In this document: positions 2,116 to 21,532 of the stretch, in pieces
How the letters are laid out: each line of letters starts with the position of its first letter
How positions within the stretch are numbered: the stretch's first letter is position 1
IMG/VR virus record: IMGVR_UViG_3300043772_002120
Coordinates: 1-28,852 of that record
Length of the DNA: 28,852 bases
Direction: 5' to 3' (one strand)
Origin: a virus
Made by a program: the position numbers and the translations under genes
Notes under the pieces: model-generated
What the model was told of the DNA's origin: nothing
Databases searched by the model: none
Seen by the model: the letters and a program-made list of their open reading frames with translations, nothing else

Positions 2116-2159
2116 ATGTGTTTTTGTGTTTGTGTTTTTGTGGTTTTGTTCGCCGCCCT

Positions 2160-2397: not shown

Positions 2398-2403
2398 CAG
2401 GAA

Positions 2404-2655: not shown

Positions 2656-2669
2656 TTTGGTTTTTAGTT

Positions 2670-2713
2670 GGGGATTTTCCCCGTTCCGCCCCCTGTCACT
2701 ATGCAAGGGGCGG
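2670..2713 (-). promoter_or_regulatory. Leader hairpins before the 83-aa gene
   Basis: A perfect 7-bp stem, CCGCCCC (2686-2692) with GGGGCGG (2707-2713), whose loop contains GTGACA on the minus RNA, is followed by GGGGA-3-TCCCC (2670-2682). The same order, a strong stem, then GGGGA-n-TCCCC, then an A-rich start, occurs before the 53-aa gene at 1022-1062. No U-tract follows, so it is unlikely to be a simple terminator. Confidence 0.5.
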
Positions 2714-2732
2714 CGGCGGGAAAGACAGCCCG

Positions 2733-3590: not shown

Positions 3591-3598
3591 GGTGTTGA

Positions 3599-3784
3599 TT
3601 AGGAAACTTTTTTAAGGTCTTTTATGTAAACAAGAATATTTGCGCGCAGCGCAGGAGAATAAACAAGGGCCTTTTTTGCGTATTTTTTTGGATCTTCTAA
3701 AAGAGTGACCAAATCGGAAACTCTTTCCCCCTCATATTGTGATACTCTGTAGGAGTCAATTTTGTATTGTGCGTTATTTTTCAT
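3599..3784 (-). CDS. Hypothetical protein, 61 aa
   Basis: Start ATG 3784-3782 with the recurring context AACAACACC-ATG. The 61 residues begin MKNNAQYKIDSYRVSQYEGE and are Lys- and Tyr-rich, with an amphipathic helix at residues 20-40 and a beta-like C-terminus ending KKVS. No family recognised. It fits between the membrane protein upstream (8-base gap) and the GP88-like gene (8-base gap), so it is clearly within the same transcript. Confidence 0.55.
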   Translation of the reverse strand: MKNNAQYKIDSYRVSQYEGERVSDLVTLLEDPKKYAKKALVYSPALRANILVYIKDLKKVS

Positions 3785-3792
3785 GGTGTTGT

Positions 3793-3996
3793 TTAGTGTT
3801 GAAAAAAGAAGTTGACCAGAGAGACCCCGAAAACAAAAAGCACACTTCCCCCCACGCATAGCGCAAAGAAAGAAGCCTGCTTGAATTCACGAATGATCCC
3901 GTGAGCATAGAACGCAAAGCGGGACGGATTGCGAATAATGGCGCGAACGTGCAAGGCACAGCGTCCGCCTGATGATGATGGTGATTTGTTTTCCAT
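3793..3996 (-). CDS. Small single-span membrane protein, 67 aa
   Basis: Start ATG 3996-3994 (MENKSPSSSGG). A polar, basic N-terminal half is followed by one hydrophobic segment at residues 41-64 (SFFALCVGGSVLFVFGVSLV) that should span the membrane, with the C-terminus close to it. This is the first gene of the leftward operon and faces the control region 3997-4228. An overlapping frame on the same strand also stays open, but it lacks a membrane pattern and is His/Ser-rich junk. A role in superinfection exclusion or lysis control is possible but unsupported. Confidence 0.5.
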   Translation of the reverse strand: MENKSPSSSGGRCALHVRAIIRNPSRFAFYAHGIIREFKQASFFALCVGGSVLFVFGVSLVNFFFQH

Positions 3997-4120
3997 ACGG
4001 GGACACTATCGGACGGGGGACAAATAAAGGCAAGGGAAATTTTCAAACTATTTTTAGCAAATCGATAAACCTTAATTAGAATAATTACAAATAAGAATTG
4101 ACGTAGTGCGGGAGAGGGTA

Positions 4121-4157
4121 GGACACGAAATGTCCGAGGGGGTAAGACATTGATGTC
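4121..4157. promoter_or_regulatory. Two tandem palindromes between divergent genes (operator candidates)
   Basis: GGACA-5-TGTCC (4121-4135) and GACAT-2-ATGTC (4146-4157) are perfect inverted repeats sharing a GTA(G/A)GACA...ATGTCC core, centred about 24 bases apart. They lie between the leftward operon (first ATG 3996) and the rightward promoter at 4192. Two similar dyads in a divergent region are typical of repressor operators. The cognate repressor is not obvious; the double-HTH protein at 11884-12195 is one candidate. Confidence 0.6.
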
Positions 4158-4191
4158 CTATGCCCCAGAAAAAAAAGATCAAAAAAAACAT

Positions 4192-4219
4192 TTGACAATT
4201 AATCGGGGGATGATACCTT
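4192..4219 (+). promoter_or_regulatory. Rightward promoter
   Basis: TTGACA (4192-4197), 16 bases, TACCTT (4214-4219) followed by GG. It also reads TTG, 19 bases, TAnnTT-G-G, close to the Bacteroidota promoter form. The ATG at 4229 begins only 9 bases after the -10, so the transcript would start within about 3 bases of the start codon and be nearly leaderless. Confidence 0.65.
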
Positions 4220-4228
4220 GGCCAACGT

Positions 4229-4510
4229 ATGGGAAACACCACCACAAAAACGGGCGCGGGGAACATCACCGCCGCGCAGTTGCAAGACCTCCACAATCAT
4301 TTCGCGAAATTCTTTGGCGTGCCAGCGCGGAAGACTCGGCGGGTGCTTGTGGCGATTATGCCAGACGGGAAAGAGCATGTCATTAAACGCACGTTCGGAA
4401 GACACTATAACAGCCCAGACTCTGGGCGGGGTTGCTTCCCCCTGTCCTATGCCAAGCAAGTATGGAAAGAGGAGGGTGCGCGTATTGTCTCGCGTTCGGT
4501 TCTCGTCTAA
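4229..4510 (+). CDS. Hypothetical protein, 93 aa
   Basis: Start ATG at 4229 (MGNTTTKTGAGNITAAQLQD), directly downstream of a strong promoter and with no room for a ribosome-binding site. The 93 residues contain an N-terminal helix (14-28), a basic patch (34-38) and a beta-like IMPDGKEHVIKR stretch. An overlapping frame starting 11 bases earlier is Arg/Pro-rich and less protein-like. I see no HTH. A terminator follows 20 bases after the stop, so this is a single-gene transcript, perhaps an early control protein. Function unknown. Confidence 0.6.
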   Translation: MGNTTTKTGAGNITAAQLQDLHNHFAKFFGVPARKTRRVLVAIMPDGKEHVIKRTFGRHYNSPDSGRGCFPLSYAKQVWKEEGARIVSRSVLV

Positions 4511-4530
4511 TCGGTAGTCTCTTAATCAGC

Positions 4531-4566
4531 CCCGTCAGGCGAAAGCTTGGCGGGGTTTTTCTTTTC
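4531..4566 (+). terminator. Rho-independent terminator
   Basis: CCCCGTCA (4531-4538) pairs with the arm ending in CGGGG at 4556, giving about 8 bp with one G-U, and is followed by TTTTTCTTTT. It closes the 93-aa gene transcript. Confidence 0.75.
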
Positions 4567-4776
4567 GGGGTTTGCCCCTATGCTTGCGGGGTTGCTCCCC
4601 GTGCATGGTGCGCGTTCGCGTTGCTTGCCATTGTGCGCTTACTCTGTCAGCTTCCGAGGGTCATCATAGCGGACGCCCAATCAAAGCGCCTCTGCTGGCC
4701 GTATAAGCGGAGACTCATCTATCAAGTCATAGGATCGGGGCAGGATGGCGCGACAAGCGCGAACCAGCTATCAGTG
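4567..4776. other. Non-coding tract with GC-rich hairpins
   Basis: No credible gene lies between the terminator and the HNH gene. This first part contains GGGG-4-CCCC (4567-4578) and an interrupted 9-bp hairpin, ATGC plus CGGGG with CCCCG plus GCAT (4580-4606). The short ORFs on both strands have biased, Pro/Arg/Cys-rich translations without protein character. Confidence 0.4.
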
Positions 4777-4900
4777 CGGACGGGGGGCGGGACGGACGGG
4801 ACAGAGTAGACGGGGACGGCGGGACGCTGGCGAGCGTAGGAGCGGGACAGCGTAGCGGGGCAGGACAGCGGACAGGACAGAGCGGGACAGCCTGCGGGAA
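4777..4900 (+). repeat. G-rich tract with repeated GGGACAG units (possible origin or packaging site)
   Basis: The + strand is dominated by GGGAC and GGACAG units. AGCGGGACAG occurs exactly at 4841-4850 and 4881-4890, 40 bases apart. CAGGACAG occurs at 4861-4868 and 4873-4880. Five GGACAG copies lie within 4798-4890. A small hairpin (ACGCT-4-AGCGT) sits at 4824-4837. Iterated non-coding motifs like this can be replication iterons, packaging sites or G-quadruplex formers; nothing here decides between them. Confidence 0.45.
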
Positions 4901-5017
4901 CCCATGACACATGACTATTACCTATCATCACACAGACCCCCACCACACCCGTGTTGACCCCATGTTCTCATTAGCGAAGGCGGCATCACACACAAAATAC
5001 CTGATCTCAAATATTGT
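4901..5017. other. Non-coding spacer before the HNH cassette
   Basis: I see no gene or strong structure here. Base composition changes from G-rich to AT-rich, which marks the left boundary of the inserted-looking HNH cassette. Confidence 0.35.
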
Positions 5018-5046
5018 TTGACAAAACTAATCTTAGTAACTACATT
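5018..5046 (+). promoter_or_regulatory. Promoter of the HNH cassette
   Basis: TTGACA (5018-5023), 17 bases, TACATT (5041-5046). The ATG at 5053 follows after only 6 bases, so the predicted start falls on or next to the start codon, giving a leaderless message. Confidence 0.6.
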
Positions 5047-5052
5047 GCTAGT

Positions 5053-5628
5053 ATGAAACTCAAATACGCCAAACTTAAAAACAAAGAAGCTATCAAGATT
5101 TTTCGTAGAATTCTGGAAGAAATTGAGAAATTACACCAATTAGAGGAAGAAGAGGTTGATGATTTTAGTTCTTCCTTCTGGAAGGAGATAAAGCTCACTG
5201 ATGGAGCAAAGATCTGCTACGAGAATTATCGTAGGTGTTTACAGAGAAAACAGGCCAGAAGGGTTTATCGCGCCATGATGGACACTTATATGAATCATTA
5301 TGGGGATAGACTGGTTACCCCAGAAGCCCGCAGACGCCACTCTCAGAGACGCCGCACATTAAAGTCTGCTAAGAAAGATTCCAAGGTTCGCACAAAGATT
5401 CTTTCCATTAATGTTGGCCCTTGTAAGTGTTACTGGTGTGGTGTTAAGTTACCAACTGGTGGACACGCTGACCATATTGTGCCATTGTCCAAGGGTGGTA
5501 GCCACACCTGTGATAACATTGTAGCTGCCTGTAAGATATGCAACGAGACCAAGAAAGATACGATGCCCGACTCCAAGGATCTACCGATTCACATGGAGCT
5601 TCAGCTACCACTGATTCACCACTCTTGA
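5053..5628 (+). CDS. HNH endonuclease
   Basis: 191 residues. I use the ATG at 5053 rather than the in-frame TTG at 5014, because that TTG lies within the promoter. The N-terminal 120 residues are helical, Lys/Glu-rich and then strongly basic (RRRHSQRRR near 93-101), suited to DNA binding. The C-terminal HNH domain shows C126 and C129, the HADHI motif (138-142, catalytic His), N155, and C160/C163 completing the zinc site. It is AT-richer than the surroundings and looks like a free-standing homing-type nuclease cassette together with the next small gene. Confidence 0.85.
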   Translation: MKLKYAKLKNKEAIKIFRRILEEIEKLHQLEEEEVDDFSSSFWKEIKLTDGAKICYENYRRCLQRKQARRVYRAMMDTYMNHYGDRLVTPEARRRHSQRRRTLKSAKKDSKVRTKILSINVGPCKCYWCGVKLPTGGHADHIVPLSKGGSHTCDNIVAACKICNETKKDTMPDSKDLPIHMELQLPLIHHS

Positions 5629-5765
5629 GGGACAACACCAAGTATCAGAGGAAGTATTACTCTAAGAATAAGGAGAAGGTGAAGGATAGGGTTCGGCGTT
5701 GGAGGGCCAAGAACAGGAAGAAATACAATGAGTATATGCGGAATCTCCGCAAGAAAAAAGCCTAA
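5625..5765 (+). CDS. Small highly basic protein after the HNH gene
   Basis: 46 residues from a TTG at 5625-5627 that overlaps the HNH stop (TTGA). About half the residues are Lys or Arg, with Tyr repeats (YQRKYYSKNKEKVKDRVRRW) forming one long basic helix. Similar Lys/Arg/Asn-rich tails accompany HNH genes in phages. It could be a DNA-binding partner, or the remnant of a longer nuclease. An ATG start at 5538 is possible but would lie wholly inside the HNH gene. Stop at 5763-5765. Confidence 0.5.
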   Translation: MRDNTKYQRKYYSKNKEKVKDRVRRWRAKNRKKYNEYMRNLRKKKA

Positions 5766-5784
5766 CTACCCCCACCCCCGTCTC

Positions 5785-5800
5785 TTCTCTTTCTAGAGAA
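5785..5800. other. Hairpin between convergent genes
   Basis: TTCTCT-4-AGAGAA is a perfect 6-bp stem in the spacer (5766-5892) where rightward and leftward transcription meet. It has no clear U-tract, so it is at best a weak bidirectional terminator. I see nothing else in this spacer. Confidence 0.35.
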
Positions 5801-5892
5801 CCCCCTACCCCCTTGTTTTAAGCTATCCCCGTCTCAGATATTTTTCTCTGATATGTTTACGGCTTATACATATTGGGGGGAATGTGTCGATA

Positions 5893-6069
5893 TTATGGGG
5901 TTTTGTATACAGGTTCGGGCTGGTTGGGGTTTAGGAAGAGGTCTTCTTCTGTGGAGACGAGGTATAGGTTGGAGTAGGAGTTGTTTCCTATCCTTATCTC
6001 TACTTCCTTGTCTTCCTGCTCTTTGGTTAGGGTTGCCCTTATTAGTCCTGAGAGTTGTTTGTAGGTCAT
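5893..6069 (-). CDS. Small phage protein of the M-T-x-K-Q-L type, 58 aa
   Basis: I choose the ATG at 6069-6067 (MTYKQLSGLIRATL) because its context, AACCCCGCAACC, resembles other starts in this phage and the protein then opens like its relatives. An in-frame ATG at 6090 would add seven residues. A short helix is followed by beta-like KEVEIRIGN and an acidic, Pro-rich tail. It resembles the 52-aa protein at 676-834. It is the last gene of the long leftward train. Function unknown. Confidence 0.6.
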   Translation of the reverse strand: MTYKQLSGLIRATLTKEQEDKEVEIRIGNNSYSNLYLVSTEEDLFLNPNQPEPVYKTP

Positions 6070-6129
6070 GGTTGCGGGGTTTATCGACATATGGCCCCGT
6101 AAATGGGGATTATTTGCGTTTAAATGGGC

Positions 6130-6399
6130 CTAGGATGGGTTTTCCACCCATTCCCCATATTCATCATCATAATGAATAATAATGTCTTGTGTGGCCTTTT
6201 GGTGGTCTATGTATCTTCTAGCTTTTAAAAACGTGTAGAAGTAGATGGTATTATAACCCCCGCTTCGTCCATTGATAGGAACTTTGAAGTTGTACCAGTC
6301 TTCGCTTCCCTCTTCTTGGTATTGGGGGATGAAGATGGGGACTTCGGGGTCTTCGGTCTTCTTTACTATCCTATATGCTGTTCGTATGGAGACTTTCAT
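6130..6399 (-). CDS. Hypothetical protein, 89 aa
   Basis: Start ATG 6399-6397 (MKVSIRTAYRIVKKTEDPEV), preceded by AACCCCGAATCC and no Shine-Dalgarno. The protein is rich in Tyr and acidic residues and alternates short beta-like segments (IFIPQYQ, YNTIYFYTFL, DIIIHYDDEYGEW). No membrane segment, metal motif or known family. The gaps to its neighbours are small on both sides, which fits membership in the leftward operon. Confidence 0.6.
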   Translation of the reverse strand: MKVSIRTAYRIVKKTEDPEVPIFIPQYQEEGSEDWYNFKVPINGRSGGYNTIYFYTFLKARRYIDHQKATQDIIIHYDDEYGEWVENPS

Positions 6400-6470
6400 G
6401 GATTCGGGGTTGCGACTGTTAACTACGGGGGTTTATTCAAGCCAAAATTGAACTATTTCCCATTTTGTAC

Positions 6471-6728
6471 TCAATTGTCATCTTCTAGAAAGATTGGGGT
6501 AGCCTCCCCGACATTGGCTCCCGCTACGTTGTAGTCGAAGTATTCGTAGGCTTGCTCCTCGTCCATGCCTTCTTTAATGAAACATTGGATGGCTTTGGAT
6601 TTGGAGTAAATGGCTATCGGGTCATTGAACTGATACCCTATTCCGATAAAGGCTTCTTCTAGGCCGTCTGCGAACATGATGCTCTCCTCCCTTTCCTTTA
6701 GGAGCTTGTCTGCCTCTATGGTGGTCAT
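6471..6728 (-). CDS. Conserved small phage protein (FADG...GMxxEEAxEYFxxNVxGAxVGExTPIF type)
   Basis: 85 residues from ATG 6728-6726. The pattern MFADGLEEAFIGIGYQF, the helix with GMDEEQAYEYFDYN (residues 54-67) and the ending VGEATPIFLEDD match a small protein I have seen repeatedly in tailed-phage genomes, always unnamed. The function is unknown to me; no catalytic motif is evident. Its start overlaps the upstream stop (ATGA), so it is translationally coupled. Confidence 0.7.
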   Translation of the reverse strand: MTTIEADKLLKEREESIMFADGLEEAFIGIGYQFNDPIAIYSKSKAIQCFIKEGMDEEQAYEYFDYNVAGANVGEATPIFLEDDN

Positions 6729-6985
6729 GATGTTTCGGGGTTGGTCTCAATTGGGCCCAAGGGTATGGGTTGTTTGAGCATAAAGGGCCGCTGGTGGGCT
6801 TTTCTGCTGGTTGGCTTGCGACGATAGCCTACTAGGCACAAAGTCTCTCCTATGGCGTTGTAGATGGGGAGCAGCTTTCCCTGCTTTAGTAGTCTGTTGA
6901 TTTTGTCCATGGGTACTCTGTTTTGGGGTAATGGTACGTTTTTTCCGCTTAGTCTGTCTCTATGGAGGTGGAGGTTTTTGCTCAT
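6725..6985 (-). CDS. Hypothetical basic protein, 86 aa
   Basis: Start ATG 6985-6983, overlapping the stop of the upstream 39-aa gene (ATGA), and ending in a second ATGA overlap with the next gene. It begins MSKNLHLHRDRLSGKNVPLP and has a central helix (MDKINRLLKQGKLLPIYNA), a basic loop (YRRKPTSRKAHQR) and a Pro-rich end. Net charge is strongly positive. I recognise no family; nucleic-acid binding would fit the charge. Confidence 0.6.
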   Translation of the reverse strand: MSKNLHLHRDRLSGKNVPLPQNRVPMDKINRLLKQGKLLPIYNAIGETLCLVGYRRKPTSRKAHQRPFMLKQPIPLGPIETNPETS

Positions 6986-7101
6986 TTGGATTCGGGCTTC
7001 TTGGTGTCAACTGGTTTTTTCTTACCCCACTTGATGGAGCCGTAGTTGTCCCGATACTTCGGGCCGTCTACCTTCCTTGGCTTATCTCCTTTACCAGCCA
7101 T
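6982..7101 (-). CDS. MGKGDK-type small phage protein, 39 aa
   Basis: An ORF of 39 residues from ATG 7101-7099: MAGKGDKPRKVDGPKYRDNY, then GSIKWGKKKPVD and a basic tail. The GKGDKxR...YxxKYRxNYxxIxWG pattern is a very common tiny phage protein of unknown function. It overlaps the zinc-ribbon gene upstream by 11 bases and the 86-aa gene downstream by an ATGA junction. The frame and family pattern make it real despite its size. Confidence 0.75.
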   Translation of the reverse strand: MAGKGDKPRKVDGPKYRDNYGSIKWGKKKPVDTKKPESK

Positions 7102-7615
7102 TTCGTTTTTTTATTTCTTCAAAGTTAGAGTGGGCCATCAGTTCATCGTAATTAAACTTGCTCCCCAAGCATTGTCTTATAGATGTTCTTTCGTCGCTAA
7201 ATCCTTCGCGTTTGCCGTTTACTAGGAAAACGTGTTTGGGAACTGTTGTTTGCCCCGTGACAAAAGCGACCCCTTCGGAAGTCAGCCGCCACAGGCCAGA
7301 CCCCGATTGTTCTCGTTGCACTCTTGGATCATCGGATTCTACTGGCAAAAGCAGCCCCCAAAAACGTAGTTTGGAATACTCTTGCGCCACCGCGTTTTTT
7401 CTTTCAGCCAGAAAGGAATCAGTAACATGCAAAACCATAGATTTGGTGCTGCGACATTTCTGGTAAATTTGAATGAGCATCCACGCCATTCCGCTGTTTA
7501 ATTTACGCTTGTAACGCTTGGTGTATCGACCACAACAGGGGCATTCGTCCCCTTTGTCTAAACGTTCCATGAATTGCTTCCGAGCATCACCTAACGTTTG
7601 AAGTGTGTCACTCAT
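7091..7615 (-). CDS. Zinc-ribbon / winged-helix-like phage protein
   Basis: 174 residues from ATG 7615-7613. The segment ECPCCGRYTKRYKRKLNSGM (24-43), with C25, C27 and C28, followed by a helical region and WGLLLP...GLWRLTSEGVAFV, matches a family common in tailed phages. The second half resembles a winged-helix fold (residues 58-120). The C-terminal KFNYDELMAHSNFEEIKKR is also typical. DNA binding and a regulatory role are inferred from the fold; the biochemical function is unknown to me. Confidence 0.65.
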   Translation of the reverse strand: MSDTLQTLGDARKQFMERLDKGDECPCCGRYTKRYKRKLNSGMAWMLIQIYQKCRSTKSMVLHVTDSFLAERKNAVAQEYSKLRFWGLLLPVESDDPRVQREQSGSGLWRLTSEGVAFVTGQTTVPKHVFLVNGKREGFSDERTSIRQCLGSKFNYDELMAHSNFEEIKKRNGW

Positions 7616-7618
7616 GGC

Positions 7619-7816
7619 TTAAAACTCCAACGGATCAACAACCCATCCCAATTGGGGGTGGCGGTCGATAATTCGGCGCTGCATCCCCTTAACGAAGTCT
7701 TCTCCAGACTCCTTGATGTCGCTATCCAGCCAGTCGCGGGTGGACTCTAACAGTGTTCTTAACGTAGCTTCGGCGTGGGCCAGATCGTCGTTAAGCTGTG
7801 CAATTGTTGTATTCAT
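7619..7816 (-). CDS. Hypothetical helical protein, 65 aa
   Basis: Start ATG 7816-7814 (MNTTIAQLNDDLAHAEATLR). A heptad-like N-terminal coiled coil covers residues 5-30, followed by an acidic helix and a hydrophobic end (WVVDPLEF). No known family. It lies 3 bases from the zinc-ribbon gene and is preceded by a 62-base spacer with a GC-rich hairpin. Confidence 0.55.
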   Translation of the reverse strand: MNTTIAQLNDDLAHAEATLRTLLESTRDWLDSDIKESGEDFVKGMQRRIIDRHPQLGWVVDPLEF

Positions 7817-7826
7817 GTGAGGGGTT

Positions 7827-7860
7827 GGGGCGGGAGATAGGTCGAATTACCTCCCACCCC
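7827..7860 (-). promoter_or_regulatory. GC-rich hairpin in an operon spacer
   Basis: GGGG-c-GGG (7827-7834) pairs with CCC-a-CCCC (7853-7860), and AGGT pairs with ACCT inside it, in the spacer between the 70-aa and 65-aa genes. No U-tract follows in the leftward direction. It may modulate stability or downstream expression. Confidence 0.4.
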
Positions 7861-7878
7861 ATGGGCTGACACCCTAAA

Positions 7879-8091
7879 TTAGAATGCCTCGTCTACTTCC
7901 TCTTCCTTCTTATAAGGAGGAGAGAATTTGAGGCTGACGTAGTCCACTCCCTTTTGGGACTTCTGCTTCCAGCCCGCAACGTCGAGGAGGACGCCGTTGA
8001 CCATCACCTTACCCTTGTGGGTCGGGGCTTTGGGGTTATCACTTTTGTTCGGGAACAATGCTCCCGAATTGTCTTTTTGTTGGTTATTCAT
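7879..8091 (-). CDS. DUF736-like small protein
   Basis: 70 residues from ATG 8091-8089. The pattern NSGALFPNKSDNPKAPTHKG, then VNGVLLDVAGWKQKSQKGVD and YVSLKFSPP, follows the DUF736-like arrangement (NSGALF...GxxxVNGxxYxxxxWxxxSKxGxxYxSLKF). Members are small beta-barrel proteins of unknown function common on phages and plasmids; single-strand DNA binding has been guessed from the fold. The C-terminus is acidic (EEEVDEAF), like the tails of single-strand binding proteins. Confidence 0.7.
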   Translation of the reverse strand: MNNQQKDNSGALFPNKSDNPKAPTHKGKVMVNGVLLDVAGWKQKSQKGVDYVSLKFSPPYKKEEEVDEAF

Positions 8092-8098
8092 AGTTAGT

Positions 8099-8554
8099 TT
8101 ATTTCTTTATTATCTCTTCACTAATGGCCAGTAGGTCTACTGTAGGCACTACGGTCATCAGATCTTTTCTACCATTGCGTTGGTAAAGTCTATAGACAGC
8201 GGGTTTCAAGCTTTGTTCACTATTTTCTGTCAATCCTTCGATAAAAGGCATGAGGGTGCGGCGTTTGACCACTATCCAGTGGGCGCGGGTTTCAAAGACG
8301 ATGTAGTCTGCTTCTCCGTAAAGCCAACCTAGATCTCCGTTGACGTTGCGTAGTTCGATGTAGTGCATACGATCTGTGGGTTCGGGGTCGGCTCGATTCC
8401 ACTTCTTCATCGCCTTAACATCGTATTTTAAATTATTACTCACTACATCCCAATGCTCTTCTATGTCCTCTTGGGGGGTGGAGAATCGCGGGCTGTCAAG
8501 ATGGCGGGCAAAGCAATACTCAGCCTTTCTACCAGTGTCGTAGCATGTGTCCAT
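8099..8554 (-). CDS. Possible PD-(D/E)XK-like nuclease, 151 aa
   Basis: I start at ATG 8554-8552 (MDTCYDTGRKAEYCFARHL), which clears the upstream stop; an in-frame ATG 12 codons earlier would overlap it. The pattern E12, then D45-V-K47, then E67-L-R, then G73-D74 resembles the active-site layout of small PD-(D/E)XK enzymes, with the core order helix, strand, strand. That is inference; no specific family is recognised. A longer basic C-terminal half (RRTLMPFIEG onwards) follows. Confidence 0.5.
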   Translation of the reverse strand: MDTCYDTGRKAEYCFARHLDSPRFSTPQEDIEEHWDVVSNNLKYDVKAMKKWNRADPEPTDRMHYIELRNVNGDLGWLYGEADYIVFETRAHWIVVKRRTLMPFIEGLTENSEQSLKPAVYRLYQRNGRKDLMTVVPTVDLLAISEEIIKK

Positions 8555-8561
8555 TGCGATA

Positions 8562-8768
8562 TTAGACAGCGTAGGTCTTGAAGCGTTCAAAGTTTATTGC
8601 CATACACCGCATGGCTTTTCCATCATTCCCCACATCCTTGGCCCAGACGGCATTATCGCTCACCACCCCATATTCTTGGAGGAAGTTCATTACCTTAACC
8701 TCGTCCTCAGATCGGGTTTTGATCCACCTCTCTAGCTTATTCCCAGTATAGGAGGGCATAGATACCAT
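8562..8768 (-). CDS. Hypothetical protein, 68 aa
   Basis: Start ATG 8768-8766 (MVSMPSYTGNKLERWIKTRS); an alternative start is three codons in. It is charged and predicted helical at residues 9-32 (LERWIKTRSEDEVKVMNFLQ), followed by a short domain with a Cys and basic residues. Its start lies within the last 32 bases of the 31-aa membrane peptide gene. No family recognised. Confidence 0.55.
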   Translation of the reverse strand: MVSMPSYTGNKLERWIKTRSEDEVKVMNFLQEYGVVSDNAVWAKDVGNDGKAMRCMAINFERFKTYAV

Positions 8769-8832
8769 AGGAGAACGCTCCCCAAAAGATAATGGCTAGG
8801 ATAGAGGCTGCAACTATTGTGGTTATCTTCAT
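8737..8832 (-). CDS. Tiny membrane peptide 1, 31 aa
   Basis: ATG 8832-8830 to TAA 8739-8737: MKITTIVAASILAIIFWGAF then SYGIYALLYWE. Nearly the whole peptide is one transmembrane helix with a single basic residue at the N-terminus, so the N-terminus should face the cytoplasm. It is the last of three tiny membrane genes in a row and overlaps the next gene by 32 bases. Small phage membrane peptides include holin-like and antiholin-like factors, but nothing here identifies this one. Confidence 0.5.
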   Translation of the reverse strand: MKITTIVAASILAIIFWGAFSYGIYALLYWE

Positions 8833-8834
8833 TG

Positions 8835-8924
8835 TTATTCAGGTTTAATGCGGTCTTTGATGACCTTGAGGGCCACGATAACCATGGCACCCCAGAAAAC
8901 AATAGCCACAAATGAGTCAACCAT
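8835..8924 (-). CDS. Tiny membrane peptide 2, 29 aa
   Basis: ATG 8924-8922 to TAA 8837-8835: MVDSFVAIVFWGAMVIVALK followed by VIKDRIKPE. One hydrophobic helix (residues 4-19) with a basic C-terminal tail, which predicts the opposite orientation to peptide 1. It lies two bases upstream of that gene. Shares the FWGA motif with peptide 1, so the two may be old duplicates. Function unknown. Confidence 0.5.
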   Translation of the reverse strand: MVDSFVAIVFWGAMVIVALKVIKDRIKPE

Positions 8925-8943
8925 TGAGGTAATTAGTCAACCA

Positions 8944-9027
8944 TCAGTCAAGATGCTTGCCAGTAACTTTCCACCAGCCAACAAACAAGCAGGCCAGCAT
9001 TGCGTAGATAGATCCTATAGCTTCCAT
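8944..9027 (-). CDS. Tiny membrane peptide 3, 27 aa
   Basis: ATG 9027-9025 to TGA 8946-8944: MEAIGSIYAMLACLFVGWWK then VTGKHLD. One hydrophobic helix (3-19), with Trp-Trp at the interface and a short polar tail. It is the first gene after a terminator-like hairpin and is separated from peptide 2 by 19 bases. The three peptides are oriented and spaced as a unit. Function unknown; candidates are holin-like or exclusion peptides. Confidence 0.45.
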   Translation of the reverse strand: MEAIGSIYAMLACLFVGWWKVTGKHLD

Positions 9028-9037
9028 AAAATAAATA

Positions 9038-9070
9038 GGGAGGAGGCTAATTGCCCCCTCCCTTTGTTTC
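9038..9070 (-). terminator. Terminator-like hairpin within the leftward train
   Basis: GGGAGG-a-GGC (9038-9047), a 5-base loop, and GCC-c-CCTCCC (9053-9062) form a stem of 9 pairs with one mismatch. U-rich tracts flank it on both strands (leftward TATTTATTTT; rightward TTTGTTT), so it could terminate both ways. In the leftward operon it separates the 46-aa gene from the three membrane peptides and may reduce their expression. Confidence 0.55.
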
Positions 9071-9089
9071 TGTAGTTTGAACCCGTTGT

Positions 9090-9230
9090 CTACAGAAAGA
9101 GATACGCAAACCAGCGGCACAACCCGAAACAGTTGGGTTTATCCTGCTTCGTTTTGGGACACGGGGCGTAGCCAATCCCCCCATAGGGGCCGTAGACAAT
9201 ACCGAATTCATTGGTGTAGTAGTTGTTCAA
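9090..9230 (-). CDS. Small Cys-containing protein with a TTG start, 46 aa
   Basis: The TTG at 9230-9228 lies 10 bases after AGGAGG on the minus strand, the only strong Shine-Dalgarno I found in this window, and decides the start. The product begins MNNYYTNEFGIVYGPYGGIG, then a CP...NCFGLC segment and a hydrophobic end WFAYLFL. Gly/Tyr repeats and three Cys suggest a small folded or membrane-associated peptide. An ATG in another frame 18 bases on gives a Ser/Arg-rich product that looks less real. The stop is TAG at 9092-9090. Confidence 0.5.
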   Translation of the reverse strand: MNNYYTNEFGIVYGPYGGIGYAPCPKTKQDKPNCFGLCRWFAYLFL

Positions 9231-9248
9231 TTCCTTTCCACCTCCTTT
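9231..9248 (-). promoter_or_regulatory. Strong Shine-Dalgarno before a TTG start
   Basis: The minus strand reads AAAGGAGGTGGAAAGGAA directly before the TTG at 9230-9228. It contrasts with the Shine-Dalgarno-free starts of nearly all other genes here. Confidence 0.6.
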
Positions 9249-9281
9249 CTGTAAAAGAACGAAGCTGGAATTATGCCAGAA

Positions 9282-9440
9282 TTACTTGGTTCCGTAAAGC
9301 GTTACCCAAAGCAATCCCCATTGGGAGAAACAATATCCTCCCCAGATGACTGACAGGGCGTAGTTTCCGCGCACAGCTTGTTCCAGAGAAACAATACCAT
9401 AGCAGATGCCTACCGCCCCAATCAGCCAGATACTAGTCAT
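9282..9440 (-). CDS. Small two-span membrane protein, 52 aa
   Basis: I use ATG 9440-9438 (MTSIWLIGAVGICYGIVSLE) because it overlaps the end of the upstream gene and gives a compact membrane protein. Hydrophobic segments cover residues 3-18 and 31-50, joined by a short polar loop (EQAVRGNYA). The pattern I-GxxIxYGxVxxxxxxRGNYxxxVxxxGYxxxxxGLxW is found in small membrane proteins of many phages, always unnamed. A holin-like role is conceivable but unproven. The longer in-frame extension falls within the acidic protein gene. Confidence 0.6.
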   Translation of the reverse strand: MTSIWLIGAVGICYGIVSLEQAVRGNYALSVIWGGYCFSQWGLLWVTLYGTK

Positions 9441-9687
9441 CAGAAGATTCTTCTTTGACTTCTTCTTGTTTCGGTGTGGTGGATTCCTTGAGAGACTTAA
9501 GGACTTCTTCCATGCCATCATAGGTAAGAAGAACGTCCACAGGGTCAGAGTCCTTGCGCTCTCCTTGGATCATTACGATGTTGTCGGTTCCGCCGTTAAG
9601 CAGTGTGTAGTCCTTGGCCACATAGGCGCTATTCACGCGATTAGTAAGCACTTCGGACGGGTCTTGTTGTTTGGTTTCTTCACTCAT
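9433..9687 (-). CDS. Hypothetical acidic protein, 84 aa
   Basis: Start ATG 9687-9685 (MSEETKQQDPSEVLTNRVNS), overlapping the upstream stop as ATGA. The middle has beta-like segments (YTLLNGGTDNIVMIQGERK), then a helix, and the last 18 residues are strongly acidic (KQEEVKEESSDD). No family recognised. Acidic tails are often used for protein contacts. Its end overlaps the two-span membrane protein gene by 8 bases. Confidence 0.6.
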   Translation of the reverse strand: MSEETKQQDPSEVLTNRVNSAYVAKDYTLLNGGTDNIVMIQGERKDSDPVDVLLTYDGMEEVLKSLKESTTPKQEEVKEESSDD

Positions 9688-9905
9688 AGATTTATTTGAT
9701 AGTCTTCGCTGAATCGGACGAATAGATTTCCGTCCATGTACATATGGTCGAGGTGGACTGGCTCTTTGTCAACCCGCCAAAGAAACATTGCCTTCCCTTC
9801 TCCGACTCGTTCGGTTGTGATGTAGCCTTCGTGGTCATGTTCAAACTGCGAATACTTCTTCCAGCCACTGACCATTTCAAAGACTTTGGATAGTCCTTCG
9901 CTCAT
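9684..9905 (-). CDS. Hypothetical protein, 73 aa
   Basis: Start ATG 9905-9903 (MSEGLSKVFEMVSGWKKYSQ); a longer in-frame reading runs into the deaminase gene and is not credible. The 73 residues begin with a helix and continue as a beta-rich domain with several His and acidic residues (FEHDHEGYITTERV; LDHMYMDGNLFVRF). No family recognised. A possible promoter (9915-9943) lies just upstream, the only gap of note in this part of the operon. Confidence 0.6.
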   Translation of the reverse strand: MSEGLSKVFEMVSGWKKYSQFEHDHEGYITTERVGEGKAMFLWRVDKEPVHLDHMYMDGNLFVRFSEDYQINL

Positions 9906-12195: not shown

Positions 12196-12206
12196 ATGAT
12201 TATATA

Positions 12207-12235
12207 TTGACACTTAAACCTAGCTGTTGTTCAAT
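12207..12235 (+). promoter_or_regulatory. Possible rightward promoter for the tRNA
   Basis: TTGACA (12207-12212), 17 bases, TTCAAT (12230-12235). The predicted start near 12242 would leave a 5' leader of about 19 bases before the tRNA at 12261. It interleaves with the leftward promoter at 12217-12244. Confidence 0.4.
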
Positions 12236-12244
12236 ATCCGTCAA
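12217..12244 (-). promoter_or_regulatory. Promoter of the long leftward gene train
   Basis: On the minus strand: TTGACG (12244-12239), 16 bases, TAGGTT (12222-12217) followed by TA. This matches the TTGAC/TAnnTT form of other promoters in the window. Start near 12210 gives the ATG at 12195 a leader of about 15-17 bases. It drives genes from 12195 to about 5893 as far as I can see. Confidence 0.6.
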
Positions 12245-12260
12245 CCAAGTTCTTTTAAAT

Positions 12261-12334
12261 CGCGGGAACAAGCCTTGGTAGGCTAACCAGTCTCATAAGC
12301 TGGGGTAATGTGAGTTCAATTCTCACTCCCGCTA
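12261..12334 (+). tRNA. tRNA-Met(CAT), initiator-like
   Basis: Acceptor arm 12261-12267 with 12327-12333 and discriminator A12334. Anticodon stem CCAGT/GCTGG with loop CTCATAA (CAT at 12294-12296). T arm GTGAG-TTCAATT-CTCAC. No encoded CCA. The first pair is a C-U mismatch and the D stem has A11-U24, two marks of bacterial initiator tRNA, and the anticodon loop is identical to that of initiators. The GGG/CCC pairs of the anticodon stem are absent, position 8 is A rather than U, and 10-25 is A-A. A lysidine-type Ile tRNA (CAU) is an alternative. Confidence 0.8.
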
Positions 12335-12362
12335 CTTTTGCAAAGGTTCCACCTCAATGACA

Positions 12363-12379
12363 AAAGCCCATAGGGCTTT
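12363..12379. terminator. Bidirectional terminator between tRNA and HNH gene
   Basis: AAAGCCC-3-GGGCTTT is a perfect 7-bp stem. On the minus strand it ends in TTTTG after the HNH gene; on the plus strand it ends in TTTCTCC after the tRNA. It can serve both convergent transcripts. Confidence 0.6.
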
Positions 12380-12382
12380 CTC

Positions 12383-12685
12383 CTAGCGAGTAGTTGTGGT
12401 GGTCGAAGTTTGGCGCGGTTTCTTCGGGAGCCGCGCTCTTCTTTTGCGGGGCTTAGACTTCCTTTGTTCCTTGTGGAACAATTTGTGGCAGATCTTGCAC
12501 AGGCAGATCAAATCATCCAGATGGTTGAGTTCGTCCCCTCGGTGTTCGTAGGTGCGGTGGTGGGCCTGAAGTTCTAGCGGGCTATTGCAAACCCCACACC
12601 TCCACCCGAACCGCTTCTTCACAAGTCGGCTTACTTCCTTCCAGTAAGGGGTGTGCAAGTAGGCTTTGTAGGATTCCTTATCCAC
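12383..12685 (-). CDS. HNH endonuclease
   Basis: 100 residues from GTG 12685-12683 (MDKESYKAYLHTPYWKEVSR). The opening Y-L-x-T-P-Y-W and the HNH core match phage HNH nucleases: C30 and C33, H42-H43-R-T-Y (catalytic region), D57-D58-L, C63/C66, H67 and H71. The C-terminal tail is basic and Thr-rich. A TAAGAT lies 6 bases before the GTG, again suggesting a leaderless start. It is antisense to the RNA genes around it and may be a homing nuclease that has inserted between tRNA and ncRNA. Confidence 0.8.
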   Translation of the reverse strand: MDKESYKAYLHTPYWKEVSRLVKKRFGWRCGVCNSPLELQAHHRTYEHRGDELNHLDDLICLCKICHKLFHKEQRKSKPRKRRARLPKKPRQTSTTTTTR

Positions 12686-12705
12686 AGAAAGATCTTACTC
12701 TCTTG

Positions 12706-12734
12706 TTGACAGAGTAGCCACTCTTAGTTATTTT
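12706..12734 (+). promoter_or_regulatory. Rightward promoter upstream of a short terminated RNA
   Basis: TTGACA (12706-12711), 17 bases, TATTTT (12729-12734) followed by GG. The -35 lies within the inverted repeat TACTCT-9-AGAGTA (12696-12716), a possible operator. The predicted start is near 12741. Confidence 0.6.
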
Positions 12735-12740
12735 GGCGTT

Positions 12741-12824
12741 CGTTTGCATAGTTCTGGGTGCGGTTCCGTTTTGCGGTGTCTTATCGTTGACTTGTTATTC
12801 GGGGCCGCACCCTTTTTCTTTTTT
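12741..12824 (+). ncRNA. Candidate short RNA ending in a terminator
   Basis: The promoter at 12706 would start transcription near 12741. Nothing is coded before the terminator that ends at 12824, so the product is an 80-odd base RNA or an attenuated leader of the large RNA downstream. Its body contains a small CCG-5-CGG hairpin. No family recognised. Confidence 0.4.
12756..12824 (+). terminator. Rho-independent terminator or attenuator
   Basis: GGGTGCGG (12756-12763) and CCGCACCC (12805-12812) form a perfect 8-bp stem with a 41-base loop, followed by TTTTT-C-TTTTTT (12813-12824). It works on the plus strand only; the minus side lacks a U-tract. Confidence 0.65.
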
Positions 12825-12825
12825 C

Positions 12826-12854
12826 TTGACCCAAGTTTGAACATTTTGTAGGGT
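12826..12854 (+). promoter_or_regulatory. Promoter of the large structured RNA
   Basis: TTGACC (12826-12831), 17 bases, TAGGGT (12849-12854). The predicted start is near 12861, within the first stem of the structured RNA or just before it. It begins right after the upstream terminator, which insulates it. Confidence 0.5.
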
Positions 12855-12856
12855 CG

Positions 12857-13618
12857 CGGTGTCAACGACATGACGGACACCGTAAAGTGGGCGTGAAATA
12901 TGCCACTAGAACCTGTGACGAGGTATGCAAGGGTAAAACCGCCGCACTCACAGTTAGCCATCCGTCCCATTGCTTGATCTTATTGCGGCGTGGGAATCCA
13001 AGATAGTTGAACTGTGGTGGCGTCTCTTTTCCTCAAGCGTCATCATGCGTTTGAGGCTTCGGGAATAAACTCTAAAATACCGAAGGGGGCCATCACAACT
13101 CAGCTATCTTGGTAAGCGCGAGGGATAATACCCTCGGAGGTTGATTGCGATTGTTTGAAGGTCTATTAGCGGCTTCGGAGCCTAGATCGTGATCTGTGGA
13201 ATAAAGCGGAGGACTCACTCATAGGAATGAGAATCCAATTTTGACTATGCCTTTGCCCCTGCGGGGGCGAGGTGTAGTCAAACGGTCGGATCTAGCTCAA
13301 GGAATTATTAATCCAATGACGGCGGCGTTCGGGGTTCAAGCGAAAGAGAGCCGCTATATAGGCGGGCGCACGGCTTTAGCCCGCCGAATACCCCCAAAGA
13401 AAAAAGAAGAAAAAACATTGAACGCCCCGAAAGGGCTATGGTCTATGTATCTATGGATACTTCGGAGGGGATCATTGAGGGCAACACTGCGAATGCGGGG
13501 TTGAGCGACCTGAGTCCTCTCCCAATTTTTGGAGGCGGGGAGACTTGGCATGAAAATGCGGAAGCTTCAAAGATCGGGGGGTCGATGAAGTCGCGCCACC
13601 CCGCTTCCAATCTCTTTT
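12857..13618 (+). ncRNA. Large ornate structured RNA (GOLLD/ROOL-like candidate or new class)
   Basis: About 760 bases with no credible gene and almost continuous complementarity. Main helices: 12857-12863/12876-12882; 12913-12918/12948-12953; a 24-position helix 12998-13021/13089-13112 with one 2-base internal loop and G-U pairs, enclosing hairpins 13031-13039/13048-13056 and 13057-13062/13080-13085 as a three-way junction; 13119-13124/13131-13136; 13182-13188/13289-13295; a long hairpin 13240-13282; 13361-13367/13379-13385 with a possible pseudoknot; 13464-13471/13515-13522; and the closing stem 13531-13540/13599-13608 followed by TCTCTTTT. A GNRA hairpin, GCAT-GAAA-ATGC, sits at 13548-13559. 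An A-rich single strand lies at 13396-13417. Size, phage location and tRNA neighbour match GOLLD or ROOL RNAs. Confidence 0.7.
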
Positions 13619-13969
13619 ATGAACAGACAAGAAGCAATACAACTACAGATAGATGAAATCATGGATAGCTTTGATTTCCAATCAGCCATGAAGGTTTTGG
13701 AGGTCTACAAGTCCATGGGGCGGGGTTATCCCAAAGACTGGTTCCTAGACGATGAGCCGTTTGAGCCTGCTATTCGGGCAGCAGCCCGCGATTGCATGAA
13801 GGCGGCGGTCAAGCACAGCTATGCTGGTCATAGCTACTTTGAATCCCGCTTTGAAGAGGGCGAAGATGAGGAAGGCCCGTGGGTCAGAATTTTCTTCAAC
13901 TTCGGGGATCATAGCCACAATGATGGAATATCTTATGAAAAAACTACTACTACTAGCATTGGTCACTAG
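13619..13969 (+). CDS. Hypothetical protein, 116 aa
   Basis: Start ATG at 13619, immediately after the U-rich end of the structured RNA. The protein begins MNRQEAIQLQIDEIMDSFDF, largely helical for 40 residues, then a charged region with His and an acidic loop (FEEGEDEEGP, 78-87), a beta-like VRIFFNFGDHSHNDG segment and a Thr-rich tail. No family recognised. No Shine-Dalgarno. Its end overlaps the next gene by 35 bases. Confidence 0.6.
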   Translation: MNRQEAIQLQIDEIMDSFDFQSAMKVLEVYKSMGRGYPKDWFLDDEPFEPAIRAAARDCMKAAVKHSYAGHSYFESRFEEGEDEEGPWVRIFFNFGDHSHNDGISYEKTTTTSIGH

Positions 13970-17014: not shown

Positions 17015-18319
17015 ATGCAAGAAGTCATCTTTGAACCATCCGCCGAAACCGCCATCCTTTCATGCCTCTGTCATGCCCCGTCAGAGGATCAGCGTGAGAT
17101 CCTTTTATCTATAAAGGAAGATCACTTCTACCTTCAGGAGAACAAGATCATCTTTCGGGCGGTCATGCGCTGTATCGCCAAGGGGATGCAGGCAGACATT
17201 ATCAATGTCAAGGGGGAGATCGAAGCCGCCAACGAATACGATATCGTTGGGGGTGAGCAGAAGATCACAGAAGTTGCTACTTCGTGTGTGGCCCACAACA
17301 ACTGGAAACGCTACTACCCCAAGCTGGAGGAAGCCCGCTACAGAAGGTCGCTGGAATACTTGGCCAACGACATGGTTCACAAGGCCAGAGACCGCGAGCT
17401 AAAGATTGAAGAACTCAAGAACTGGTCAGAGACCACCGTCATGCGGGCTGACTACGAGATGGATGATGGTAGCAAGCTCTCCATTAACAATGCCTTGGAT
17501 CGCGCTGCCCAGAACATCGAATCCACGATTGCAGGAAAACCCTGCATTGGTATTCGCACTGGTATCACTCCATTGGATGACCTTCTCATGTTTGGCTTGC
17601 GCGGCGGCGACATGGTTGTCTTGGCTGCGAGACCAGCGGTTGGCAAGACGGCCAGCGCCCTTCAGATTGCCGAAAACGTGGCACTTAACCAGAAGAAACG
17701 GGTCTTGATCTTCTCTTTGGAGATGACCAGCGTTGCTCTCATGGAGCGCATGATCCGCTCGCGGGCGCGTGTGGGTGCTGCTGACATTCTATCTGGTCGG
17801 GTGACCCCGCATCAGAAACAATCTCTCGGACGGGCCGTGCAGGAAATCCAAGCATCCGAAATCATTTGCGATGATAGCTCGGCCAAATCTATCGGTTATC
17901 TCAAAGCGGTAGCTCGCCGCGCCCACCAGCGCACCCCGCTAGACCTCATCATCATTGACTACCTCCAATTGGTTAAGGGCGATAGCAAGCGCGGAAAAGA
18001 CAATCGCGTGTGCGAGGTGGAAGAGATTAGCGGCGGCATCAAGGATCTGGCCAAGACCCTCAAGGTTCCCGTTCTGGTACTGGCTCAACTCAACCGCGAC
18101 CCAGACAAGCGTGGAGGACGCCCCAGCCTCTCAGACCTTAAGGGATCTGGAGCCATTGAACAGGACTCAGACATTGTCATCATGCTTCACAGCGAAGACG
18201 CTCAAGATCATGAACAGAATCCCACCATGGAGTTTATTGTCGGCAAGCATCGTGACGGCCCCACAGGTGTGGCCAACATGAGCTTCAACAAAGCGATTAC
18301 CCGATTTGAGGTGGCGTAG
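17015..18319 (+). CDS. dnaB: DnaB-like replicative DNA helicase
   Basis: 434 residues from ATG 17015. An N-terminal DnaB domain (residues 1-110) is followed by the RecA-like ATPase: Walker A ARPAVGKT (205-212), ESLEM-type H1a SLEM (234-237), Walker B LIIIDYLQL (311-319), the glutamine motif LAQLNR (356-361), and GSGAIEQDSD (377-386). It would form the hexameric ring that unwinds phage DNA at the fork. No primase is visible nearby. The end overlaps the convergent Cys-rich gene by 23 bases. Length is normal for phage DnaB. Confidence 0.92.
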   Translation: MQEVIFEPSAETAILSCLCHAPSEDQREILLSIKEDHFYLQENKIIFRAVMRCIAKGMQADIINVKGEIEAANEYDIVGGEQKITEVATSCVAHNNWKRYYPKLEEARYRRSLEYLANDMVHKARDRELKIEELKNWSETTVMRADYEMDDGSKLSINNALDRAAQNIESTIAGKPCIGIRTGITPLDDLLMFGLRGGDMVVLAARPAVGKTASALQIAENVALNQKKRVLIFSLEMTSVALMERMIRSRARVGAADILSGRVTPHQKQSLGRAVQEIQASEIICDDSSAKSIGYLKAVARRAHQRTPLDLIIIDYLQLVKGDSKRGKDNRVCEVEEISGGIKDLAKTLKVPVLVLAQLNRDPDKRGGRPSLSDLKGSGAIEQDSDIVIMLHSEDAQDHEQNPTMEFIVGKHRDGPTGVANMSFNKAITRFEVA

Positions 18320-19690: not shown

Positions 19691-21532
19691 ATGGCAACAG
19701 TTGATCAAGGGATAGAGAAATACGGGAGATTATGGTTACCCAAAGACGGACAGGCAATTACGCCAATCCGAATTGAGATGGACGCCTTCTTGCAGGGGCT
19801 TACCCCCGAAGAAGGAGGGCTCGGAAAGGCTCGGCATTATCGCAATGTTGTCTCGGCTATCTGGCCAACCTTCCAATGGCACAGGTGGGCAGAACTCAGC
19901 GCACAGGCATTCTGCAACCAAGTCTATGAGGTGGATGAGGCCACAGGAAACCGATTTGTCCGAAGCGTGACGGGACTGGCTGGTGGTACCGACTCTGGTA
20001 AATCCTACGGGATGGCGGCATTTGCACTGGTCAACTGGTTCTGCGACCCGATCAATACAATGACCATTGTGGTCTCTACGTCCAAAATTGATGCAAAACA
20101 GCGTATCTGGGCGGCTTTGGTTAAGATGTACCGCGAAGCCCGAAACATGGGCTTGGCTTCTGGAAGACTCATTGAGTCCATGGATATTATCAAACTCTCG
20201 GATGAAGAGGGCGCTGTTATCGATCCCGAAACAGGGGTAAGCGATGCGTCCTCAATCATGCTCCTAGCGGCTGGCGATGAATACAAAGACGATGCCCAGA
20301 AACGCCTTCAGGGTAAGAAAAATCGTCGTATCGTGTTGATTATTGACGAGTTACAAGACTGCTCTGCTTCCGTGATCAATGAGGCAGTCTGGGGATTTAA
20401 GGGCGCACAAGAGCTTTATATCGTCGGCGCTGGTAACCCGTCATCCATCTTTGATCCCCATGGGAAGTTCTGTGAACCCATCAAGGGGTGGATGAGTGTG
20501 GATGAGCAAACCCCGAACTGGAAGATACGGGTGGCTGGTATCGAGGGTGTATGTATCAGATTTGATTCAGAAAACGACAATCCGAACCAACAGTCTTTCG
20601 ATGCTGGCAAGGGGTTGCGCTATCCATTTCTACCAAAGCCTAATGATGTGGCTCTTGCCAAAAAGGAACTCGGAGAACTCAATCCGCAGTATTGGAGAAA
20701 GTTTAGGGGGTTCTGGCCCCCTGCCGATGCCGATGACTCCACGATTGTCTCTGATATCCTATTGGCTCGCCACGGGGCGCTAGACAAACCGATCTGGGAT
20801 GGAACTCCGAAAGATATTGCTGGTATTGACCCAAGTTATACTGAAGGCGGCGATAGGTTTGTATTTACCCACCTCAAGTATGGCAGGCTGATTAGTGGCA
20901 AGTGGGCGATAGCTGTCGAAAAACAGTATGTCCTCAACCGAAGAGCGGGATCTCAAGAGGACTTTCAATACGAGATGATCCAGCAAATCCACGACCTCTC
21001 TCTCAAGTTGGGAATTCCTAATCAGTGGATGGGGGTAGATGCTTCGGCTGGCGGTATTTTCTGGTCAATCGGAGAACGAGAACTCCTAAAGGGTTGGCAT
21101 GCAGTGAGTTTTGCAGGAGCGGCATCCGACCTTCCCGTCAGCGCCCAATATGCTATGAGGAACGAAGTCACTGGAAAACCGCAAGTCGGCAAGGAGTTGT
21201 TCCACAACATGGCTTCAGAACTCTGCTTTGCTGCCAGATACTTCTTAGAGTGCGAACAACTCAAGGGTATTACCCCTGATTTGGCTTGGGAGATGACACA
21301 AAGAAAGTATGTGCGTCGAACCCGAAAGATTATCATTGAGTCCAAGACGGACATGAAAAAAAGGATCGGAAAGTCTCCTGACTTATTTGACTCATTTGCA
21401 GTTGGATTGTTTGTAGCCCGAAAAGTATTTGGAGCCATGGCTGGCAGTGAGGCGATTGAGGAAAAGAAACGGCTCAACAAAGAGACATTTAAAAAACTCA
21501 AACAGTCCTTGACTATAAGGAAAAATTGGTAG
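19691..21532 (+). CDS. terL: Terminase large subunit
   Basis: 613 residues from ATG 19691. ATPase motor: Walker A GGTDSGKS (98-105) and Walker B IVLIIDE (214-220). Nuclease domain: the D380-P-S-Y pattern in IAGIDPSYTEGGD, D450 in WMGVDASAGG, and a late acidic pair, SPDLFDSF (562-569, D564 and D567), giving the three-acid RNase-H-like site that cuts concatemers. It docks on the portal and translocates DNA into the procapsid. Length is usual. Downstream come fibre genes rather than a portal gene, which is an uncommon order. Confidence 0.93.
   Translation: MATVDQGIEKYGRLWLPKDGQAITPIRIEMDAFLQGLTPEEGGLGKARHYRNVVSAIWPTFQWHRWAELSAQAFCNQVYEVDEATGNRFVRSVTGLAGGTDSGKSYGMAAFALVNWFCDPINTMTIVVSTSKIDAKQRIWAALVKMYREARNMGLASGRLIESMDIIKLSDEEGAVIDPETGVSDASSIMLLAAGDEYKDDAQKRLQGKKNRRIVLIIDELQDCSASVINEAVWGFKGAQELYIVGAGNPSSIFDPHGKFCEPIKGWMSVDEQTPNWKIRVAGIEGVCIRFDSENDNPNQQSFDAGKGLRYPFLPKPNDVALAKKELGELNPQYWRKFRGFWPPADADDSTIVSDILLARHGALDKPIWDGTPKDIAGIDPSYTEGGDRFVFTHLKYGRLISGKWAIAVEKQYVLNRRAGSQEDFQYEMIQQIHDLSLKLGIPNQWMGVDASAGGIFWSIGERELLKGWHAVSFAGAASDLPVSAQYAMRNEVTGKPQVGKELFHNMASELCFAARYFLECEQLKGITPDLAWEMTQRKYVRRTRKIIIESKTDMKKRIGKSPDLFDSFAVGLFVARKVFGAMAGSEAIEEKKRLNKETFKKLKQSLTIRKNW

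Follow-up and report, generated by a model that had tools for sequence, protein, structure and literature searches.

Introduction

Only a handful of large, ornate noncoding RNA classes have been described, and what the phage-borne ones do is still an open question. GOLLD RNAs are large, ornate and phage-borne, often lie near tRNA genes and have no known function, while ROOL RNAs occur in phages or prophages near tRNA islands, contain pseudoknots and are likewise of unknown function (PMC12286853). Both form RNA-only cages (PMC12286853). A further, independent class found in comparable surroundings, and with homologues numerous enough to yield a dependable secondary structure, would make it possible to study why RNAs of this type are retained by phages and to ask if RNA-only assembly is a general property.

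Here we describe a structured region of the virus record IMGVR_UViG_3300043772_002120 from IMG/VR; the whole stretch analysed (positions 1 to 28,852; 28,852 bases) is referred to as the window, and loci used for comparison carry L numbers. The larger part of the region, unit A, is best read from comparison of its homologues as a new noncoding RNA family, large and structured, that belongs to one phage lineage. Like GOLLD (RF02032), unit A is large, ornate and phage-borne; however, its core is about 340 nt long, compared with more than 800 nt in many GOLLD members, and it does not match the GOLLD model. With ROOL (RF03087) it shares the phage setting and a pseudoknot but again no model match. 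OLE RNA is also a large ornate noncoding RNA but is bacterial rather than phage-borne, and no Rfam match to it was obtained here. The likeness of unit A to GOLLD and ROOL lies in size, ornateness and setting only.

Genomic setting and phage lineage

The genes of the window include those for a DnaB-like helicase (17015-18319), the terminase large subunit (19691-21532), a deaminase and HNH proteins. Genes run mostly leftward to the left of ~12.7 kb and mostly rightward to the right of 13.6 kb, with the RNA region between them. Searches of cultured phage records by blastn and tblastn gave no match to the RNA region or to the window terminase. Among viral contigs, the terminase query retrieved 185 related stretches, 80 of which were kept for comparison. 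All unit A carriers compared belong to one phage lineage, their terminases being mostly 77-95% identical and their DnaB proteins 55-96% identical. The position of unit A is constant across these carriers, and its core is still recognisable even though the proteins are widely divergent.

The earlier note on this DNA had placed the RNA next to a tRNA. The tRNA-Met exists; however, it lies upstream at a distance of ~600 bases, an HNH gene on the opposite strand comes between, and no tRNA was called in most of the carrier loci fetched. The HNH gene occurs both with and without unit A: it was not found in the carrier loci L104, L106, L111, L117 and L136, and it is present in L042 and L058, where unit A is absent. 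It is no obligate partner of unit A.

Folding of the region and its division into two units

On the plus strand, the region 12850-13620 had a predicted folding energy of -306 kcal/mol, compared with -253 ± 8 kcal/mol in shuffled sequences (z = -6.6; none of 20 shuffles folded as well). The minus strand was weaker, with a z of -3.6. When both strands of the whole window were scanned in 300-base bins, the lowest z (-5.5) fell in bin 12901-13200 of the plus strand and the second-lowest (-4.6) in bin 1501-1800. The stretch 1501-2400, where the plus-strand z goes down to -4.6, lies opposite or next to a DUF932 gene (1078-2166, minus strand).

Folding strength in the RNA region, together with covariation in homologues (see below), bears out the proposal that it holds structured RNA. 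The proposal of a single RNA of ~760 bases was wrong: the region comprises unit A (12870-13318) and unit B (13464-13610), with a promoter-like site (13418-13446) between them (Table 1). This second site, and the retention of unit B, whole or in part, in relatives from which unit A is absent (L024, L042, L058, L062, L067, L073 and L086), indicate that the two units are separate RNAs. Comparison with relatives by blastn showed the region to be modular; positions 13001-13109 are missing from most relatives, some carry ~300 additional bases at 13513-13527, and some lack the whole stretch from 12857 to ~13400.

Table 1. Features of the RNA region and its upstream neighbours, in window coordinates.
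Feature	Coordinates	Strand	Evidence
tRNA-Met (CAU)	12261-12335	+	ARAGORN
HNH endonuclease gene beside unit A	12383-12685	-	PHROG HNH families, E = 5e-9
Putative unit A promoter region: TTGACC 12826 / TAGGGT 12849; overlapping phage-type TTGAAC 12837-12842 / GTCAA 12861	12826-12866	+	Motif
Unit A, large structured RNA (both ends inferred)	12870-13318	+	Homologue alignment, covariation, no coding signal
5' H-type pseudoknot: S1 12880-83 / 12891-94, interleaved with S2 12886-90 / 12903-07	12878-12907	+	Covariation
Helix P3	12913-12953	+	Two-sided changes in 5/6 pairs
Helix P4 (CCCAU/GUGGG)	12966-12994	+	100% of cells paired; two-sided changes in 2/5 pairs
Helix P5 with 24-position extension and two inner hairpins	12998-13112	+	Basal 6 bp conserved
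Helix P6 (CGAGGG/CCCUCG)	13119-13136	+	Two-sided changes in 3/6 pairs
Helix P7 (GAUUGCGAU/AUCGUGAUC)	13143-13194	+	98-99% paired; two-sided changes in 5/9 pairs
Helix P10, long hairpin with invariant GGGGCG side	13243-13279	+	Two-sided changes in 5/10 outer pairs
Two variable hairpins (GCGGC..GCCGC; GGCGGGC..GCCCGCC) between units A and B	13319-13386	+	Sequence comparison
Second phage-type promoter-like site, TTGAAC-N17-GTCTAT, before unit B	13418-13446	+	Motif enrichment
Unit B module 1, small RNA with 9-bp closing stem	13464-13522	+	Covariation, 41 distinct sequences
Unit B module 3: 12-bp closing stem, two inner hairpins	13529-13610	+	Covariation, 24 sequences

Distribution of unit A

Used as a query, the conserved core AGGTATGCAAGGRTHAHACCGCCG retrieved 43 viral stretches, and a second motif led mostly to the same contigs. 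The family amounts to ~35 distinct sequences, all from a single lineage of uncultured phages. The core is ~340 nt long in most relatives and the window copy ~440 nt. A scan of genome contigs gave a single core-motif match, L158, which was judged a chance hit as no unit A surrounded it.

A model of the 5' 123 nt of unit A, run against 70 sources, matched only the window, L106 and L136, all of which were in its training set; it gave nothing above chance where the locus of a relative carries another gene. Seven relatives have other sequence in the unit A slot, exemplified in L058 by a leftward frame of 180 residues (1799-2341). Since the slot is occupied in this way and the model finds no match there, unit A appears to be accessory.

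The two variable hairpins that follow unit A are found in many relatives and are missing or different in L104, L106, L111 and L117; they may be part of the unit A 3' end. Between L106 (767-1107) and L111 (4615-4956), the 3' part of unit A is nearly identical and the 5' pseudoknot domains differ, a pattern that suggests recombination between unit A domains.

Covariation and coding tests

The proposed structure of unit A (56 pairs in the 5' pseudoknot, P3-P7 and P10) was evaluated in 26 homologues, using alignments made with MAFFT alone, without structural realignment. Overall, 91.4% of cells were paired, compared with 79.7% (sd 0.5) for shuffled partners and 37-43% for slid partners. Two-sided changes were observed in 34 of the 56 pairs, versus 19.6 (sd 2.4) in shuffles, and the covariation score was 0.379 versus 0.179; none of 500 shuffles reached the observed paired, two-sided or score values. 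The structure was drawn by hand from these same sequences, which somewhat favours it in the slid control, so the two-sided counts are the stronger evidence; as the sequences are related, independent changes are fewer than cells. A separate alignment of 18 sequences covering domains 1-2 alone left the picture unchanged.

Substitutions relative to the window were spread evenly over the three codon phases (530/594/599). Every homologue has stops in all plus-strand frames, and indels are mostly not multiples of three. Codon periodicity, which the earlier note had named among the observations that would refute a structured noncoding RNA, is thus absent from unit A, and covariation exceeds both the shuffled and the slid controls. 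The alignments show the pseudoknot and at least six further helices to be under selection, with no conserved reading frame.

Secondary structure of unit A

At the 5' end, two-sided changes occur in all four S1 pairs and all five S2 pairs of the pseudoknot. S1 is 75% paired across the alignment and forms only three pairs in the window copy; its score and that of P6 are lowered by a register shift in divergent sequences. P3 encloses the most conserved motif, AGGUAUGCAAGGRU.A.ACCGCCG, which was used for the homologue search. Since a GGC/GCC helix at 13176-13187 is not conserved in divergent homologues, it was excluded from the structure put to the test.

The helix to which most weight had been given originally is present in the window as described: between 12998-13021 and 13089-13112, 22 of 24 positions pair, with G-U pairs and one 2-base internal loop, and two hairpins are enclosed. 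That weight was misplaced, however, because the long form is an optional extension of P5 found in 3 of ~32 sequences (the window, L012 and L130), and the conserved part is the basal 6 bp (CCAAGA/TCTTGG), where 5 of 6 pairs show two-sided changes. L036, L125 and L135 carry a different insert at this point, able to form two hairpins, and most others have a short loop. As the alignment reads, P5 is an expandable arm whose extension is peripheral.

Comparison with known RNA families

At gathering thresholds, Rfam models identified no family in the window except tRNAs, and matches below gathering were weak chance ones. No GOLLD or ROOL match was obtained in 12200-13700 even at E ≤ 5, and the unit A homologues matched no family, including GOLLD, ROOL, introns and HEARO. 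In searches of 12 whole phage records, RF02032 gave nothing above the cut-off and RF03087 nothing at E ≤ 1, with control sets that held no positive genome. Whole-record searching with the group I intron model RF00028 also yielded no hit above the cut-off. By the GOLLD and ROOL models unit A is not a member of either family; this check, which the earlier note had proposed, was negative for the window, the homologues and the whole records. The suggestion in that note of a possible new class of large phage RNA gains support from the strong covariation and the lack of a coding signal.

Promoter-like sites

From the sites upstream of unit A, transcription would start at about 12860-12873. TTGAAC and the downstream GTC are retained in almost all unit A homologues. 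A related motif, the TTGAAC-N17-GTCTAT of the second site, resembles an ECF sigma promoter (GAAC / GTC) and also stands before unit B in L003, L036, L058, L083, L106, L111 and L136. In the form TTGAAC-N16-18-GTCTA it gave 130 matches in 2.26 Mb of fetched loci, which are not independent since the loci overlap, against an expectation from mononucleotide shuffles of 0.15 per strand per 121-kb sample. In these phages it precedes unit B and several genes. Many sites of the form TTGAAC-N17-GTCTAT were seen in L058, L083, L106, L111 and L117. When the records of eight relatives were searched for a sigma factor, no region-2 match was found, and region-4 matches were weak and below the cut-off.

Interpretation of unit A

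We consider it rather probable that unit A is a trans-acting structural RNA, GOLLD/ROOL-like in its setting. During infection it would be transcribed from a TTGAAC/GTC promoter belonging to the phage, accumulate as a stable molecule and, by analogy with GOLLD and ROOL, work in trans as a scaffold for itself, a protein or a translation component. Stability and action in trans are suggested by its length, its own promoter-like site and its setting. It would be an accessory element, given that close relatives have a gene in its place. The downstream unit, with a promoter-like site of its own, carries two small structured elements.

A long cis-regulatory leader (riboswitch or attenuator) of the 13619, 13821 and 14210 operon would explain why unit A is always on the same strand and upstream of the same operon region, and module 3 of unit B does abut the next ATG in many relatives. 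This reading is nevertheless unlikely, because the second promoter-like site separates unit A from the operon, the operon and parts of unit B persist where unit A is lost, and no terminator-like site was found on this strand at the unit A 3' end.

Phages encode decoy and regulatory RNAs, and a sponge for host defence or for an RNA-binding protein would be in keeping with the combination of changing stems and invariant segments such as AGGUAUGCAAGG, which would suit a protein-binding RNA. We give such a role a low probability: no target or defence-related neighbour is known, and simpler decoys are short.

The adjacent HNH gene, and the alternative cassettes that the slot holds in relatives, would fit the RNA of a mobile element (a group I or II intron, or an HNH-associated RNA). 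With no intron or HEARO match in Rfam, no RF00028 match in the window, no interrupted gene at the locus and the HNH gene distributed independently of unit A as described above, this is very improbable. Short open frames such as 13438-13656 might speak for chance folding of a GC-rich stretch, intergenic or coding, but this is refuted: in each of three separate elements the two-sided changes far exceed those of the shuffled and slid controls, and codon periodicity is missing in unit A.

Small structured elements of unit B

We infer that unit B is noncoding from its covariation and frame-breaking indels. It was considered as a protein-coding stretch, given an open frame (13438-13656) that is longer in relatives, and rejected because the frame varies among relatives and the elements covary. 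A tmRNA reading, based on GGGGGAGA..TTGGATTCGACG in L106 and L117, was also rejected; neither ARAGORN nor Rfam calls one, and the elements covary.

In module 1, 96.7% of cells were paired in 41 distinct sequences, compared with 65.9% after shuffling and ~40% with slid partners, and the covariation score was 0.794 versus 0.204 in shuffles. Its invariant parts, CAUUGAGGG / AGCGACCUGA in the window and CAYUGAGGG over all copies for the first, sit between two helices that are variable in sequence but paired, and look like a kink-turn. ARAGORN called no tRNA at this element, which has the invariant CAYUGAGGG/AGCGACCUGA in place of a cloverleaf with a T arm. Under a loose rule, 25 of 56 copies have NCCA or NCC at their end, with T-rich DNA behind it; the window copy ends in CCCAAT.

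The module 1 pattern was found in 63 viral stretches, including several phages without detected protein similarity to the window (L194 and L180) and also L174 and L167. In L194, a copy (7811-7883) directly follows a tRNA-Leu gene inside an array of 15 tRNAs. Judged on its sequence and pairing, module 1 is a separate new RNA family, with ends like those of a tRNA acceptor, common to unrelated phages. That it turns up in such phages and within an array of tRNA genes points to uncharted RNA families in phage tRNA islands, overlooked by both tRNA finders and Rfam. The stable RNAs C and D of phage T4 are non-tRNA RNAs within a tRNA cluster; the small RNAs described here are likened to them by setting, not sequence, and no similar cultured phage record was found for the window region. 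The tRNA-like part also offers an analogy with bacterial Y RNAs (YrlA, Ro60/TROVE). A TROVE (Ro60-like) protein is encoded by L194, one of the phages that carry module 1, and a search of 13 further records, including eight relatives of the window, yielded no other; the TROVE/Y-RNA link was dropped because only this one carrier phage has the protein.

A broader proposal, which we hold tentatively, is that unit A represents a new class unrelated to GOLLD and ROOL with a structural role in infection, and that module 1 is a new small RNA of wide distribution whose end resembles a tRNA acceptor and which is carried along in tRNA arrays and matured by tRNA processing. If true, unit A and module 1 would both belong to an RNA-island toolkit of uncultured phages.

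Module 3 was 96.5% paired in 24 sequences, with two-sided changes in 15 of 24 pairs, and none of 500 shuffles reached these values. The closing stem with its U-rich tail (13529-13540 / 13599-13610), earlier taken for the 3' end of the large RNA, is real and covaries over 12 bp, but it belongs to this separate module of ~85 nt and does not end the large RNA. No other part of unit B had been picked out in the earlier note. Module 3 stops 8 bases before an ATG (13619) and lies similarly before an ATG in many relatives; from this position it may well be the leader of the following gene rather than a free RNA.

Further small elements were seen in relatives. Behind unit A, L036, L106, L117, L121 and L124 carry an element of ~66 nt (GGGGGAGA..TTCGACG..CTCCTCC) that begins like a tRNA or tmRNA and in some cases ends in ACCA. 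An extra module of ~170-200 nt (GCTGGGCAG..CCCAGC), whose hairpins show two-sided changes, lies between modules 1 and 3 in relatives (L003:3790-4230, L022, L083, L151 and, in similar form, L200) and is absent from the window. The L194 array (2100-9800 of a 205-kb phage contig) contains, besides the 15 tRNAs called by ARAGORN, many genes that resemble tRNAs but have odd T arms and escaped ARAGORN; a count of non-tRNA elements as new RNAs in this array was discarded, as it consisted mostly of these genes.
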